The position numbers and the translations under genes are program-made. DNA of 64,000 nt from Nitrospira sp. (GTDB lineage Bacteria; Nitrospirota; Nitrospiria; Nitrospirales; Nitrospiraceae). A model generated the notes under the pieces. It saw only the letters and a program-made list of their open reading frames with translations, was not told the origin of the DNA and did no database searches. The stretch is from the NCBI GenBank assembly GCA_030123565.1, contig CP126122.1, positions 3,362,800 through 3,426,799 on the forward strand, read 5' to 3'. Within the stretch, counting starts at the first letter, position 1, and every line of letters starts with the position of its first letter. Of this stretch, positions 4,342 through 41,126 are shown one piece after another.

Positions 4342-4454
4342 GTGCTGAGTGCTGAGTTCTGATTTCTGAATTTGGAATTTATGGAAAATCCATCCGGACT
4401 CCGTCATCTCCCAACTCAGAACTCATCACTCAGAACTCAGAATTCAGAATTCTG
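4342..4454. repeat. CTCAGAACTCA-type short repeat array reaching into a gene end
   Basis: GAGTGCTGAGTTCTGATTTC is followed, after about 50 bp, by AACTCAGAACTCATCACTC and AGAACTCAGAATTCAGAATTC, partly inverted copies of the first block. The right end overlaps the last codons of the acetolactate-synthase-like gene (stop at 4437), so its terminal N-S-E-F is made of repeat sequence. Confidence 0.6.
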
Positions 4455-26490: not shown

Positions 26491-26646
26491 TGCAAGGATG
26501 GAGCCCTGTCCTGTAGTGCTGCAGGGAGAGGCGATCTGCCACGCCTTCATGGAGAAAGTGGCGGGAGAAGAAGAGAACAGAGAGCAGCCAAAGGGGAGGA
26601 CTGCGCCAGGGGAGCCAGTCTGATCTGTGGCAGAATGCAACAGACC
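26491..26646 (-). promoter_or_regulatory. Block A: two-part conserved element upstream of the HlyD gene
   Basis: Two short words here, TGCAAGGATGGAGCCCT (26491-26507) and a 25-bp word from 26622 to 26646 beginning GATCTGTGGCAGAATGC, recur at 29968-30124 with the same spacing (131 against 132 bp). The 25-mer matches at 24 positions and contains a short TCTGT/ACAGA inverted repeat. The sequence between them is not alike. On the minus strand the block precedes the adaptor gene by 33 bp. Confidence 0.5.
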
Positions 26647-29967: not shown

Positions 29968-30124
29968 TGCAAGGATGAAACCCTACCGGTGCCATGCCAT
30001 TGGAGTCCGCCCTCTCCTCAACAGCACCGGCGCTCAGCCATCGAATCAGGAACATTGAGGGTTCTCCGACGTGGAGGTCTGCTACAGGAACAATCAAGGG
30101 ATCTGTGGCAGAAGGCAACAGACC
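29968..30124 (-). promoter_or_regulatory. Block B: second copy of the two-part conserved element
   Basis: TGCAAGGATGAAACCCT (29968-29984) and a 25-bp word at 30100-30124 beginning GATCTGTGGCAGAAGGC repeat Block A with 132-bp spacing. The block fills most of the 284-bp gap between the RND pump stop and the TolC start, about 107 bp upstream of the latter. No gene is seen in this gap. Confidence 0.5.
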
Positions 30125-30145: not shown

Positions 30146-33100
30146 TCAACTGAGCTGGTCGCCTACGACGGATCGTGGCAATTCCGTTTGTTCTGCGTCC
30201 GGAATGGTATGGGCAACTGTATTCCGACGATCGCCGATCCACAGGTAGTAGAGCACCGGAATGACGACCAGCGTGAGGACCGTCGAGACGCCGACCCCGA
30301 ACAACAGGGAGACGGCCAAGCCCTGAAAGATCGGATCGAGGATGATGACGAAGGCGCCGACCATCAGCGCCGCCGCGGTCAACAGAATGGGCCTGGTCCT
30401 GATCGCGCCCGCCCGGATCACCGCCTCAAGTAGCGGAACCCCTTCGGTCTCCTGGTGCTGGATGAAATCGACGAGGAGAATCGAATTCCGCACGATGATG
30501 CCCGCCAGTGCGATGAACCCGATCATCGAGGTGGCGGTGAAATAGGAACCGGTGAGCCAATGCCCCGGTAAAATCCCAATCAGCGTCAGTGGAATGGGCG
30601 CCATGATGACGACCGGTGTCAGGAAGGATTGGAATTGCGCCACGATCAACAGATAGATCAACAACAGCGCCGCCGCAAACGCGAGGCCCATGTCCCGAAA
30701 CGTTTCATAAGTGATGTGCCACTCGCCGTCCCACTTCATTGCAAACCGCTGCTCCGACCAGGGCTGCATCGCATAGTGCTGCGCGAGCGCATAGCCCTCC
30801 GGCAAGACGAGCTGCTCCAGTTTCTTCCCGATGCCCATGACCCCGTACACCGGACTCTCGCCCCTGTCTGTTCCCCCGCCGCCGACATCCGCAACGACAT
30901 AGACCACCGGCTTTTGATTCTTGTGGTAGATCGCTTTCTCCCGAACGGTCTGCTCCATCCTGATGAGTTCGGATAACGGCACCATGTGTCCGGCAACCGT
31001 TCGCAACGAGATTTCGCCGAGTTGTTCCAAACCGGTCCGTCCGGTGAGCGGAAGGCGCAGCATCACCTGGACCGGCCGCTTCTCCTTGGGGATGTGGACC
31101 AGGCCGACGTTGGCGCCCTCCAACGCCACTCGCAGGGTCTTGACGATTTCCTCCGATGGAATCCCGGCCAACGCCGCCTTCGCGCGATCGACGGTGAACA
31201 CATACTTGACCTGCTCCGCTTCGAGATAGTCATCGACATCGACCACGCCGGCCGTCGTCTCGAACAGACGCCGCACGTCGCGCGCAATGGCTATCTGCCG
31301 GTCATAGTCCGGGCCGTAGATCTCCGCCACCAACACGGACTGCACGGGCGGACCGGGCGGCACCTCCACCACCTTCACGTTCGCCCCGTACTGTCGCCCG
31401 ATCTCCTGCACCGCGGGGCGGATCCGTTGCGCGATGTCATGGCTTTGCGCCTGCCTGTGCTTTTTGGAGACCAAGTTGATCTGAATATCGGCCTCGTGCG
31501 GCTGGTCGCGCAGATAATAGTGTCGCACCAACCCGTTGAAGTTGAACGGCGAGGCAGTGCCGACATAGGCCTGATAGTCGCGCAGCTCCGGAATCGTTCG
31601 CACGTACTCGGTCAACATCTTCGTCACCCGAGCCGTTTCCTCCAGCGTCGTCCCCTCCGGCATGTCGATGACGAGTTGCAGTTCGCTCTTGTTGTCGAAC
31701 GGCAACATCTTGACCACCACATCGCGTGTATAGAACAGAAACACCGAGCCGACCAGCAGCAGCGCAATGACGCAGAGAACGAGGGAGGCCATCAGGGGAT
31801 GGGACAATACCGGAGCCAGCAAACGCTGGTACAGGCGATAGGTGCGACTCCCTTCCAACGAGTCGTGTTCGACGCCGGCCATGTGCACGCCCGGCCTGTA
31901 ACAGACTTGGCAGAACCAGGGAATCACGATGAACGCGACCAGCAGGGAGACGAACATGGCGATCGACGCATTGACCGGGATCGGCCGCATGTAGGGCCCC
32001 ATCAAACCGGACACGAAGGCCATCGGCAGGAGAGCGGCAATCACGGTCAATGTGGCAAGGATGGTTGGGTTGCCGACTTCGTCCACCGCAAACAACGACG
32101 CTTCGCGATGCGGTCGAAGCCGCAGCGTGAGATGCCGATAGGTATTCTCCACCAGCACGATCGCATCGTCCACGAGGATGCCGATGGAAAAGATCAACGC
32201 AAACAAGGTCACGCGGTTGATGCTGTAGCCGATGAGCATGGAGATGAACAGCGTGAGCGCGAGCGTCAGAGGAATCGCGATGGAGACCACGAAGGCCGGG
32301 CGGAGGCCCAGCGTGAGCCCCAGAAACACCACGACCGCCGCCACCGCGATTAAAAGATGCCAGAGCAGTTCATTGGCCTTCTCATCGGCGGTTTCCCCGT
32401 AATCGCGTGTGACGGTCACCTGCACATCCGCAGGAATCAGGGTTCCTTTCATCTCCTCGACTTTTCTGATCACGCCCCGGGCGATGGTGACGGCGTTGGT
32501 GCCGGCCTGCTTGGCGACGGCGACGGTCACGGCGGGAGATTCCTGCGTGAAGCGCTCCTCGTGAAGTGTCTCTCGCGATCCTTCCTGCGCTTCACGTTTC
32601 ACGAGCGACGCACGACGGACGTCTTCCCCATGCCATACATAACTCGTCGCCTCGGTCGGTCCGTCGGTCACAGCCGCCACCTGGCGCAGGTAGACGGGGC
32701 GCTGGTCGTTCACGCCGACGACCAGTCCCTCGAGATCCTCCTTCGATCGGATGAACCGGCCCGTTTCGACGAGAAAACTCTCGTTGCGGCTTTCAAACCT
32801 GCCGGTCGGCAACGAGAGGTTTTCCCCCTGAATGACGCTCGCGACCCGCAACGGCGTCAGGCCGTAAGCCTTCAGGCGTGGCGGGTCGATCTGTACACGC
32901 AACTCGCGGCCACGACCTCCGACCACGAACCCTCCCGCAGTGCCGGTGACTTTCTTCGCATCTTCCAAGACCTGATCGCCCAGTTGCCGCAGCTGGAAAT
33001 CCGTGTACCGTTCGCTCGACAGGGTCAGTGTGACGATCGGCACGTCGTTCACGTCGCGCGGCTTCACTTGAAAGGGTGAAGCGCCCGGCGGCAGCAGATC

Positions 33101-33472
33101 CTGGTTCGACATCAACTTGTCGTAGAGGTCCACCAAACTCTGCTCCATCGGCTCGCCGACATAAAAACGCACGATGATCAGAGCCCCGCCCGGGCGGGAG
33201 ATCGAGTAGACATATTCCACGCTCCTGATCTCGGACAGTTTGCGTTCGATCGGTTTGGTGAGCTGCTCCTCGACCACCTTCGCGGAGGCACCGGGAAACG
33301 GCAGCCAGACATCGACCATGGGCACGACGATCTGCGGCTCTTCTTCGCGCGGGGTGAGCAGGACGGCGAACAGCCCCAACAGCAAGCAGGCGATGATGAT
33401 GAGCGGGGTGAGTTTGCTGCCGACGAAGAGCGCGGCGAGGCGGCCGCTGAGACCGAGGCGAGAATTCGTCAT
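30146..33472 (-). CDS. RND-family efflux pump (HAE/AcrB-like) carrying a repeat insertion
   Basis: The pump of about 1108 residues has 12 helices in two halves, each followed by a large periplasmic loop. The first loop starts PREEEPQIVVPMVDVWLPFPG. The proton-relay helix has GILVDDAIVLVENTYRHL with the expected paired aspartates. It drives export by proton influx with the adaptor (33650-34735) and TolC-like channel. Residues of about 288-309 (RREAQEGSRETLHEERF region) are coded by a CGTGAAGCG repeat at 32546-32605 and have no counterpart in ordinary pumps. The frame is kept through it, so the protein is probably made. ATG at 33472 is preferred to a GTG at 33490. Confidence 0.93.
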   Translation of the reverse strand: MTNSRLGLSGRLAALFVGSKLTPLIIIACLLLGLFAVLLTPREEEPQIVVPMVDVWLPFPGASAKVVEEQLTKPIERKLSEIRSVEYVYSISRPGGALIIVRFYVGEPMEQSLVDLYDKLMSNQDLLPPGASPFQVKPRDVNDVPIVTLTLSSERYTDFQLRQLGDQVLEDAKKVTGTAGGFVVGGRGRELRVQIDPPRLKAYGLTPLRVASVIQGENLSLPTGRFESRNESFLVETGRFIRSKEDLEGLVVGVNDQRPVYLRQVAAVTDGPTEATSYVWHGEDVRRASLVKREAQEGSRETLHEERFTQESPAVTVAVAKQAGTNAVTIARGVIRKVEEMKGTLIPADVQVTVTRDYGETADEKANELLWHLLIAVAAVVVFLGLTLGLRPAFVVSIAIPLTLALTLFISMLIGYSINRVTLFALIFSIGILVDDAIVLVENTYRHLTLRLRPHREASLFAVDEVGNPTILATLTVIAALLPMAFVSGLMGPYMRPIPVNASIAMFVSLLVAFIVIPWFCQVCYRPGVHMAGVEHDSLEGSRTYRLYQRLLAPVLSHPLMASLVLCVIALLLVGSVFLFYTRDVVVKMLPFDNKSELQLVIDMPEGTTLEETARVTKMLTEYVRTIPELRDYQAYVGTASPFNFNGLVRHYYLRDQPHEADIQINLVSKKHRQAQSHDIAQRIRPAVQEIGRQYGANVKVVEVPPGPPVQSVLVAEIYGPDYDRQIAIARDVRRLFETTAGVVDVDDYLEAEQVKYVFTVDRAKAALAGIPSEEIVKTLRVALEGANVGLVHIPKEKRPVQVMLRLPLTGRTGLEQLGEISLRTVAGHMVPLSELIRMEQTVREKAIYHKNQKPVVYVVADVGGGGTDRGESPVYGVMGIGKKLEQLVLPEGYALAQHYAMQPWSEQRFAMKWDGEWHITYETFRDMGLAFAAALLLIYLLIVAQFQSFLTPVVIMAPIPLTLIGILPGHWLTGSYFTATSMIGFIALAGIIVRNSILLVDFIQHQETEGVPLLEAVIRAGAIRTRPILLTAAALMVGAFVIILDPIFQGLAVSLLFGVGVSTVLTLVVIPVLYYLWIGDRRNTVAHTIPDAEQTELPRSVVGDQLS
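32546..32605. repeat. CGTGAAGCG repeat inserted in frame inside the RND pump gene
   Basis: CGTGAAGCGCTCCTCGTGAAG followed by TCTCTCGCGA and GCGCTTCACGTTTCACGAG matches the spacer repeat at 40089-40181 in order and wording (GTGAAGCGTCACTCGCGA...GCGCTTCACGTTTCACG). Here it is 60 bp, a multiple of three, and is translated on the minus strand as V-K-R-E-A ... S-R-E-T-L-H-E. Confidence 0.75.
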
Positions 33473-33523
33473 TGGTCTACCCCACCTCACCTCCCCTTAC
33501 AAAGGGGAGGAAGGAATGTATTT

Positions 33524-33640
33524 CGTGAAGCGTATCTCGCCACCAAAGCGATCAGCCGTCAGTCTACAGGGATCAGCCGGGGAATTTCTGAGAGCTGAAT
33601 GCTGACTGCTGTCGGCTGATAACTATGGCCGGATGACGCT
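33524..33640. repeat. Mixed repeat spacer upstream of the RND pump
   Basis: The 177-bp gap between adaptor and pump holds CGTGAAGCGTATCTCGCC (33524 on), then TCAGCCGTCAGTC, GATCAGCC, GAGCTGAATGCTGACTGC and GGCTGATA of the TCAGC family (33548-33625), and GACGCTTGACGGG. Both repeat families therefore meet in one spacer, inside an operon. Confidence 0.55.
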
Positions 33641-39047: not shown

Positions 39048-39140
39048 CTTTCAGCTAACAGCTGTCAGCTTCCGAGCTTCGAATCTGAGGGCTAATTGCT
39101 GATAGCAGATGACTGCTCGCTGATGGCGGACAGCTGATTG
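39048..39140. repeat. TCAGC-family repeat forming the 3' end of a gene
   Basis: TTTCAGCTAACAGCTGTCAGC, GCTAATTGCTGATAGCAGATG and GCTGATGGCGGACAGCTG are degenerate copies of the TCAGC unit. The right half is inside the coding region of the formylglycine-fold gene (stop at 39092), where it is read as N-Q-L-S-A-I-S-E-Q-S-S-A-I-S-N. Confidence 0.65.
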
Positions 39141-40069
39141 CTGCCGGCCACCGATTTCGCACATCGAAATCCCATCCAATTGATCTTGGTGTTGGGATCG
39201 GTCCCGTTCCGCATGGCCACACGCATGGTCGTGGTGCTGTCCATCCACCCGCCGCCTCGGAAGGCCTTCTGGGTGCCGGTCTCCGGCCCCTTCGGATTCC
39301 GATCGGGCGAGGACTTGTAATAGTCCAGGTCGTACCAATCCGCCACCCATTCCGCGACGTTGCCCATCGTTTGATGGAGACCATAGGGGCTGACCGCGTT
39401 GTCATACTTGTCCACCGAGATGAGCGGCGGATACATCAATAACCGTTCGGGACGGTCACGGACCGGACCGGACAGGCCGGTACGGCCGAAGTTGGCGCGG
39501 CTCAAGCCGGCCGACTGGTTGCCCCAGGGATTCAGGCGTCCATCCTCCCCTCGCGCGGCCTTTTCCCACTCCGCTTCGGTCGGCAAACGTTTGCCGGCCC
39601 AGCGGCAGTAGGCATCGGCGTCATACCACGACACGTGCATGATCGGATGGTTCGCCATGGACTCCTGGAAATTCCCGCCGTCGTACCGCCAATCCAACTG
39701 CGGCAATTTGCCGGTGGCGAGGATGTACTTCAGGTAGTGAAGGTTCGTCACTTCGTACTTGTCGATCTCATAGGCGTCCAGGTACACGCGGCGCTGCGGC
39801 AGTTCCGACCGATAGGCCAAGCGATCACTCTTTTTGTCGCTGCCCATCAGAAATTCTCCCGCCGGGATCAGCACCATTTCCTCCTTGGGCTTCATCGTGG
39901 CCACGCGTTTCTCCGCGAGGGCCTTCCCTTCCCCGGTCCATTCGACCACGATGTCCTGCGTGTCCAAGCCACGCGCGACCGGAACCAGCGCGAACAATGC
40001 CGCTCCGATCAGCAGAACCTGCCTGACTCGTTTTCCTCGATGCGAAATGCCCCTTCGTCGTTTCTCCAT
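39092..40069 (-). CDS. Secreted formylglycine-generating-enzyme-fold protein (SUMF1-like), copy 1
   Basis: The 325-residue protein has a signal peptide (LLIGAALFALVPVARG) and an FGE-sulfatase fold. Markers in order are VLIPAGEFLMGSDKK, the DAYEIDKYEVTNLHYLKY segment, HVSWYDADAYCRWAGKRLPTEAEWEKAARGEDGRLNPWGN, GLHQTMGNVAEWVADWY, AFRGGGW and GFRCA. The paired copper-binding cysteines that true formylglycine enzymes carry after R-G-G-S/G are absent (GGGWMDSTTTMRVAMRN), so oxidation of sulfatase cysteine is unlikely. A structural or maturation role outside the cytoplasm is inference. The last 15 residues are repeat-derived. Confidence 0.88.
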   Translation of the reverse strand: MEKRRRGISHRGKRVRQVLLIGAALFALVPVARGLDTQDIVVEWTGEGKALAEKRVATMKPKEEMVLIPAGEFLMGSDKKSDRLAYRSELPQRRVYLDAYEIDKYEVTNLHYLKYILATGKLPQLDWRYDGGNFQESMANHPIMHVSWYDADAYCRWAGKRLPTEAEWEKAARGEDGRLNPWGNQSAGLSRANFGRTGLSGPVRDRPERLLMYPPLISVDKYDNAVSPYGLHQTMGNVAEWVADWYDLDYYKSSPDRNPKGPETGTQKAFRGGGWMDSTTTMRVAMRNGTDPNTKINWMGFRCAKSVAGSNQLSAISEQSSAISN

Positions 40070-40088
40070 CTTCGGCCTCCTCTTGTTT

Positions 40089-40181
40089 CGTGAAACGTTA
40101 TTCGTGAAGCGTCACTCGCGAAAGACCAGATACAGTTCCAGGTTCCGTCGGCGCTTCACGTTTCACGCTTAACGCTTCACG
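40089..40181. repeat. Full-length CGTGAAGCG-family repeat spanning a gene end
   Basis: CGTGAAACGTTATTCGTGAAG, CGTCACTCGCGA and, after 28 bp, GCGCTTCACGTTTCACGC then TTAACGCTTCACG form an inverted repeat across the boundary between the two formylglycine-fold genes. The gene ending at 40098 runs into it. Confidence 0.7.
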
Positions 40182-41050: not shown

Positions 41051-41100
41051 CTCAGCTTTCAGCCGTCAGCTTCTGAAATCAGAAGCTGAAAGCTGATCGC
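41051..41100. repeat. TCAGC-family palindrome
   Basis: CAGCTTCTGA (41067-41076) and TCAGAAGCTG (41079-41088) are a perfect 10-bp palindrome with a 2-base centre. An outer pair CAGCTTTCAG (41053-41062) / CTGAAAGCTG (41086-41095) offers a competing fold. It lies between the carboxypeptidase-regulatory-like gene and formylglycine-fold copy 2. Confidence 0.6.
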
Positions 41101-41126
41101 TCATGGTTGACTGCTTCACTCCGCGC

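Follow-up and report, generated by a model that had tools for sequence, protein, structure and literature searches.

Introduction

Short dispersed repeats of inverted-repeat character are well represented in bacteria by REP sequences and MITEs; REPs that accompany RAYT transposases are palindromes of 20-40 bp tagged by GTAG or CGTC, and occur together with a RAYT gene. The Rickettsia palindromic elements (RPEs; Ogata et al. 2000), as two accounts describe them, are dispersed repeats situated both between genes and in frame within unrelated genes, to which they add a peptide; these comprise several families with possible hot spots, are 100-150 bp long and clearly palindromic, and occur in Rickettsia and Wolbachia (PMC3767692, PMC10969869). 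Such in-frame spread into proteins has been described as unusually frequent in Rickettsia, an intracellular lineage whose genomes are reduced (PMC10969869). The TAACTGA heptads of Beggiatoaceae (MacGregor 2015) are mostly intergenic and mostly arranged as direct repeats just upstream of start codons; their forward units have stops in all frames and are consequently located at gene ends, and some reverse copies lie inside ORFs, one of them within a loop at the surface of a protein resembling RNA polymerase beta prime (PMC4679880). The intrastrand triplex motif (TM) is reported to be always intergenic in E. coli MG1655 (PMC4666352).

Here we analyze a stretch of 64,000 nucleotides from Nitrospira sp. 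(contig CP126122.1; hereinafter the window), in which an efflux pump gene contains 60 bases of repeat-like sequence. We show family identity with a dispersed repeat, restriction of the reading frame, a predicted disordered-loop position, empty sites in other genes and, from sequence comparisons, the replacement of loop cassettes. Accordingly, we regard it as quite probable that the 60 bases represent a heptad-built, mostly intergenic repeat that has been repeatedly captured in frame in Nitrospiraceae proteins, with recombination between repeats, or template switching, as the inferred means of entry and exchange. In the open-licence literature we found no description of such repeats in Nitrospira.

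A dispersed heptad-built repeat family

The pump insert belongs to the dispersed CGTGAAGCG repeat family of this genome. This sequence occurs 10 times in the window (0.92 expected) and 210 times in the 4.6-Mb genome, as against 40 for a reversed control pattern; the longer 16-mer CGTGAARCGTGAARCG, with up to two mismatches, has 115 matches genome-wide (control: 4), and the pump copy matches it exactly (CGTGAAACGTGAAGCG). A family profile built from 19 intergenic copies, all from outside the window, recovered from the window a copy at 40083-40173 as the best match (E 1.3e-6), followed by the pump insert (32545-32617, E 7e-5) and then by the partial copy upstream of the pump gene (Table 1). Sequence and profile hence confirm the original prediction that the 60 bases match an intergenic repeat with the parts ordered as in the copy at 40089. 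Beyond this genome, the repeat was found in 27 of the 28 other genomes of the genus and in 7 of 8 from the rest of the family, with zero control matches across the 61 genomes. The most copies were seen in a member of another family of the order (L235, genome G044; 76 exact 16-mers), where a recent arrival of the repeat is possible; most of its relatives have none.

Table 1. Coordinates of the pump gene and of repeat-derived features, numbered from the first base of the window
Feature	Position	Strand	Remarks
RND-family efflux permease gene (ACR_tran), host of the insert	30146..33490	minus	open, 1114 codons
Repeat-derived insert, L-V-K-R-E-A-Q-E-G-S-R-E-T-L-H-E-E-R-F-T	32546..32605	minus	between two beta strands
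Left arm CTCGTGAAACGTGAAGCG on the coding strand, two GTGAARC heptads, codons LVKREA	32588..32605	minus	exact to the 16-mer family; sole stop-free frame
Nine-base spacer CAGGAAGGA (QEG)	32579..32587	minus	spacers of homologous copies differ in length and sequence
Inner right motif TCGCGAGAGACACTTCACGAG	32558..32578	minus	common to intergenic copies (TCGCGAG...GACGCTTCACGA)
Outer right arm CGCTTCACG, complementary in inverted orientation to the heptads of the left arm	32546..32554	minus	within the 10-bp perfect inverted repeat
Partial copy, intergenic, immediately upstream of the pump gene	33523..33545	plus	profile match E 0.028
Second element copy	40086..40181	minus	extends over the tail (SVKREAPTEPGTVSGLSRVTLHE) at the C-terminus of a sulfatase-modifying-factor-like protein and over the space before the next gene

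The element is built of GTGAARC units in one arm and ACGANNN and GCTTCAC units in the other, and matches no Rfam family. Its ends are not fixed: arms differ in their number of complete heptads, the longest array reaching 170 bp; a single strict pattern (GTGAARCGTGAARCG-N-TCGCGAGTGACG) was discarded since it matched the 40089 copy only, the element being too variable for it. One array of about 24 exact GTGAAGC units extends from the last codons of a gene (...TLREA-stop; L188 2981-3150, G000:C1:2916280-2916449), and the intergenic sites of L175, L177, L180 and L206 form a subfamily that is set apart from the generally variable element by a conserved middle, AACATGCCACAGCCGGTTCTGAAACGAGAGACGAACGACGCTTCACGAACGACGAA.

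On the coding strand the pump insert reads CTCGTGAAACGTGAAGCG-CAGGAAGGA-TCGCGAGAGACACTTCACGAG-GAGCGCTTCACG, specifying the peptide LVKREAQEGSRETLHEERFT at pump residues ~296-315; the loop had been correctly placed by the original prediction, with its residue range (288-309) requiring this correction. Variable loop length prevents the ends of the insert from being placed exactly. In the copy at 40086-40181 the parts follow the same order, the spacer being longer; the protein whose tail this copy supplies has 315 residues, with its FGE-sulfatase domain ending at 285. Other heptad families (AGCTGAT/TCAGCCA type and AACTCAG type) are also present in the window, at 39091-39143, 1199-1229, 4342-4452 and 41052-41104; the first of these lies at the end of the gene at 39092-40069 (minus strand), where it supplies NQLSAISEQSSAISN, the C-terminal tail of another sulfatase-modifying-factor-like protein.

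The description of the repeat as palindromic held in part. The pump insert has a 10-bp perfect inverted repeat, reached by 4 of 2000 shuffles, but its fold is barely above shuffles (z -0.5 as DNA, -1.6 as RNA), and the in-gene copies, which span ~50-72 bp, have DNA fold z of -0.5, 0.4, -1.1 and -0.4. The copy at 40086-40181 folds strongly (z -2.8 and -4.8 in two computations), and the 19 intergenic copies have a mean z of -1.2, with only some folding well. The term is fair for the family and weak for its in-gene copies.

Stop codons restrict the reading frame

The left arm, CTCGTGAARCGTGAARCG, has one stop-free frame, LVKREA, which runs into TGA if a third unit follows; a second frame yields REA-stop, and in the third a stop comes immediately. 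No stops occur in the complement arm (ASRFTLHE). Given the seven-base period, three or more joined forward units produce stops in all frames. In all four insert-bearing proteins of this genome the reading is (L)VKREA, with different residues elsewhere in the insert. The cause is the single open frame of the left arm: TGA interrupts the other two, so that interior copies that survive read VKREA. In general, two forward units are present in interior survivors, which are read as VKRE(A/T) if the forward arm is on the coding strand; copies read from the opposite strand yield SLHASR or TLHASR. A copy in the REA-stop frame provides a gene end, as in L176, L184, L188, L190, L353, L356 and L362, and RET-stop gene ends occur besides. 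The frame choice of captured copies is largely forced.

In-frame copies in other genes

We classified a large sample of sites among the matches listed, using gene calls from a Markov gene caller. For this genome, the 48 site clusters among the matches listed comprise 36 intergenic, 5 C-terminal, 1 N-terminal, 4 in-frame interior and 2 chance sites, which supplies the genic share that had been proposed as a check alongside the genome-wide count. About 82% of the DNA sampled for this classification is coding, yet most sites are intergenic, found near gene starts and near gene ends alike. The two chance sites, which resembled interior ones (L177 at 4724, and L191 at 2962 in an SNF2-type helicase motif), were rejected for being two-mismatch matches in ordinary conserved sequence with no sign of an insert.

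The four interior copies lie in the pump, an Lhr-type helicase (PPSLVKREASLARGQTNDERRETND) and two hybrid histidine kinases (GLVKREAFDPLTRDGSRATNDAPRPA and SLVKREASDERRDPNDEIRRT). Both kinase inserts sit in the alpha3-beta4 loop of a receiver domain: in the first, the loop has 36 residues versus 12, with a 24-residue insert that is absent in 22 of 22 orthologues; in the second it has 31 versus 14, with a 17-residue insert likewise absent in 22 of 22, including a species with 87% identity. These insertions are clean and private, with empty sites in the orthologues. The two have 22 identical flanking bases in common, and may represent one event copied between paralogous receivers. An AlphaFold2 model of the first receiver has an intact fold and a disordered insert (pLDDT <50 at residues 78-93). 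A receiver in L235, from another family, has its own copy of the repeat in the same loop. The claim that repeats spread into proteins is right, and is better shown by these copies elsewhere in the genome than by the pump.

The Lhr helicase displays two hot spots, one loop being of GTGAAGC type, of TCAGCCA type or empty depending on the species of the genus, and the second loop likewise. Lhr also displays a cassette swap between L274 and L280, in which the flanks are 93.5 and 94.8% identical and the loop 63%. In five other genomes, 42 sites among the matches listed divide into 30 intergenic, 6 interior and 6 C-terminal ones. The interior hosts are a nitroreductase-like protein, a HerA-like ATPase, an M28 peptidase, Lhr (twice) and an N-terminal extension of argininosuccinate lyase; the C-terminal hosts are NusB and others.

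The pump loop and the origin of its insert

The pump protein matches the Pfam family ACR_tran over its length (E 7e-164), and Foldseek searches with its model recovered AdeJ, CmeB, OqxB, AcrD and AcrB as best matches (TM-score ~0.8 with AdeJ, AcrB and CmeB). In the closest sampled species the pump gene is found only as a remnant with several stops (G006:C1:3372194-3372874). The intergenic gaps of the efflux region contain a 25-base sequence, GATCTGTGGCAGAA(T/G)GCAACAGACC, twice (26622-26646 and 30100-30124; 24 of 25 identical), which contains TCTGT...ACAGA as an inverted pair and is a possible operator.

We compared the pump loop across orthologues drawn from the genus, family and order in a search of 61 genomes, and found it to be hypervariable. 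A related insert (type A; e.g., SSLVKRESQEGLRETLHEERFTPE) is present in seven other genomes, and another heptad insert (type B; e.g., DTLDVKGETNTPASHLVPFTSHE) in four genomes of the genus and two outside it; type B-like inserts occur at the same loop in other genera (L055 and L062, ARETSDVKRE...SHLSPFTSHES). Other orthologues contain shorter remnants of heptads (SRLTPHE), and in many the loop is a short glycine/serine one. The loop of L056 (G030) has a triplex-type palindrome, PSPSPLPAGGERAGVRG, in frame (CCTCTCCCC...GGGGAGAGGG...GGGGTGAGGGG); the pump loop of L063 has a palindrome of this type as well. Contrary to what had been supposed, the insert is not private to this genome, since related or alternative inserts occupy the same loop across Nitrospiraceae. 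Its residues are absent from distant homologues, in keeping with the original prediction: 75 homologues from beyond the Nitrospiraceae, at ~45-55% identity, have loops of unrelated sequence and varying length.

This distribution bears on the best-surviving alternative, namely that a single ancient insertion in the Nitrospiraceae ancestor descended vertically and diverged or shortened in each species, with the insert types as its decay products. The occurrence of type B-like inserts in the genus and in other genera, all at one loop, agrees with this, as does the pair L031 and L033, whose loops (81% identical) have diverged like their flanks (83-85%). However, pumps whose flanks are 95% identical alternate between types A and B: the flanks of L032 and L036 are 95.5% identical and their loops, at ~60%, are different cassettes. 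Comparison of these near-identical genes shows that one loop cassette has been replaced by another. Further, a tree of the rest of the protein requires a minimum of 15 loop-type changes and of 8 between repeat and no repeat, and a different palindrome family occupies the L056 loop. We accordingly hold a single ancient insertion to be unlikely as the full account; nevertheless, the pump insert is old and its entry unseen, and part of what is observed is explained by divergence, in place, of an insert inherited from an ancestor, which counts against the preferred reading of repeated capture.

Less likely still is a classic MITE moved by the transposase of an insertion sequence, with terminal inverted repeats and target-site duplications. 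The element resembles one in being dispersed, partly inverted-repeat in character and under 100 bp, and in lying both in genes and between them, but no target-site duplication was seen at the two empty sites examined, and its ends are unfixed, given the variation by whole heptads described above.

A selected functional segment of the pump (e.g., in partner contacts or substrate entry), with the repeat likeness incidental or co-opted, strikes us as decidedly improbable. In its favor are the location of the loop in the periplasmic part of the pump, the maintenance of the frame over the divergence of several species and a pN/pS below 1. The AlphaFold2 model has pLDDT <50 at residues 294-314, flanked by well-modelled strands at 284-289 and 318-327, and thus the insert is predicted to be a disordered loop on an intact fold. 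As originally proposed, the repeat lies in frame where the first periplasmic domain of an RND pump has a loop that tolerates it. Within type A inserts pN/pS is 0.60, a value from 23 codons that is also compatible with weak selection keeping the insert sequence, versus 0.10 in the downstream flank (the left flank, misaligned by a two-codon indel, was unused); judged by this ratio, the insert appears to be under relaxed selection. A function is unlikely because the segment is exchangeable, predicted to be disordered and under relaxed constraint; moreover, close relatives of the pump have unrelated inserts or none, and the same segment is found in unrelated cytoplasmic proteins. The pump insert is probably an old, nearly neutral passenger of the loop rather than a functional part. 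Finally, although loop length varies in all homologues, an arginine/glutamate-rich loop that resembles the repeat by chance or local slippage can be practically dismissed, as the exact 16-mer is followed by further motifs in the same order and the profile match, with the absence of control matches, already contradicts it.

Under repeated capture, then, copies would enter and be exchanged via recombination or template switching between repeats, without a transposase; they would persist where a permissive loop tolerates them, and a copy in another frame would end its host gene at the REA-stop. We identified no enzyme or spread intermediate for the repeat. More tentatively, we propose as a possibility falling short of the above that the process is ongoing in Nitrospiraceae, with several heptad families being written into or swapped at permissive loops by repeat-mediated recombination, again without a transposase, steadily creating disordered segments and C-terminal tails. 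Because a comparable process is seen in free-living, nitrite-oxidizing nitrifiers with 4-5 Mb genomes, genome decay is not required for it, and free-living bacteria, too, can gain new protein segments from repeats resembling junk. These genes offer natural experiments, in which the same loop is empty, has one repeat or has another between flanks that are ~95% identical; and as the stop codons of such a repeat fix the reading frame, the peptide it adds is predictable.

Comparison with known systems

Like REP sequences and MITEs, the Nitrospiraceae element is short, dispersed and of inverted-repeat character; unlike them, it lacks fixed ends or a visible target-site duplication, and its arms vary by heptads. 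The L056 pump-loop insert resembles the TM but belongs to a family different from the repeat of the window.

The likeness to RPEs drawn by the original prediction stands insofar as the element is found both between genes and in frame inside unrelated ORFs, with empty sites. It does not extend to the element itself: its in-gene copies are ~50-72 bp long, heptad-built and weakly palindromic, as opposed to stem-loop palindromes of 100-150 bp; its host is a free-living member of the Nitrospirota (Nitrospiraceae) rather than of the Rickettsiales; and cassettes from different families take one another's place in loops. By analogy, the process would be RPE-like, with heptad-built elements as its substrate. 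The Nitrospiraceae element works like an RPE but, differing in length, palindromy and host, is not one.

Nor is Rickettsia the sole precedent it had been taken for, since TAACTGA heptads lie inside ORFs of Beggiatoaceae (PMC4679880). The element shares with these seven-base units, a mostly intergenic distribution and forward units that stop all frames when at least three are joined. In contrast to TAACTGA units upstream of starts, its unit is GTGAARC and it is found near both gene starts and ends; it is also two-armed, with a two-unit forward arm open in one frame, and sits in conserved domains with demonstrated empty sites. In build, the element is closest to the Beggiatoaceae heptads.
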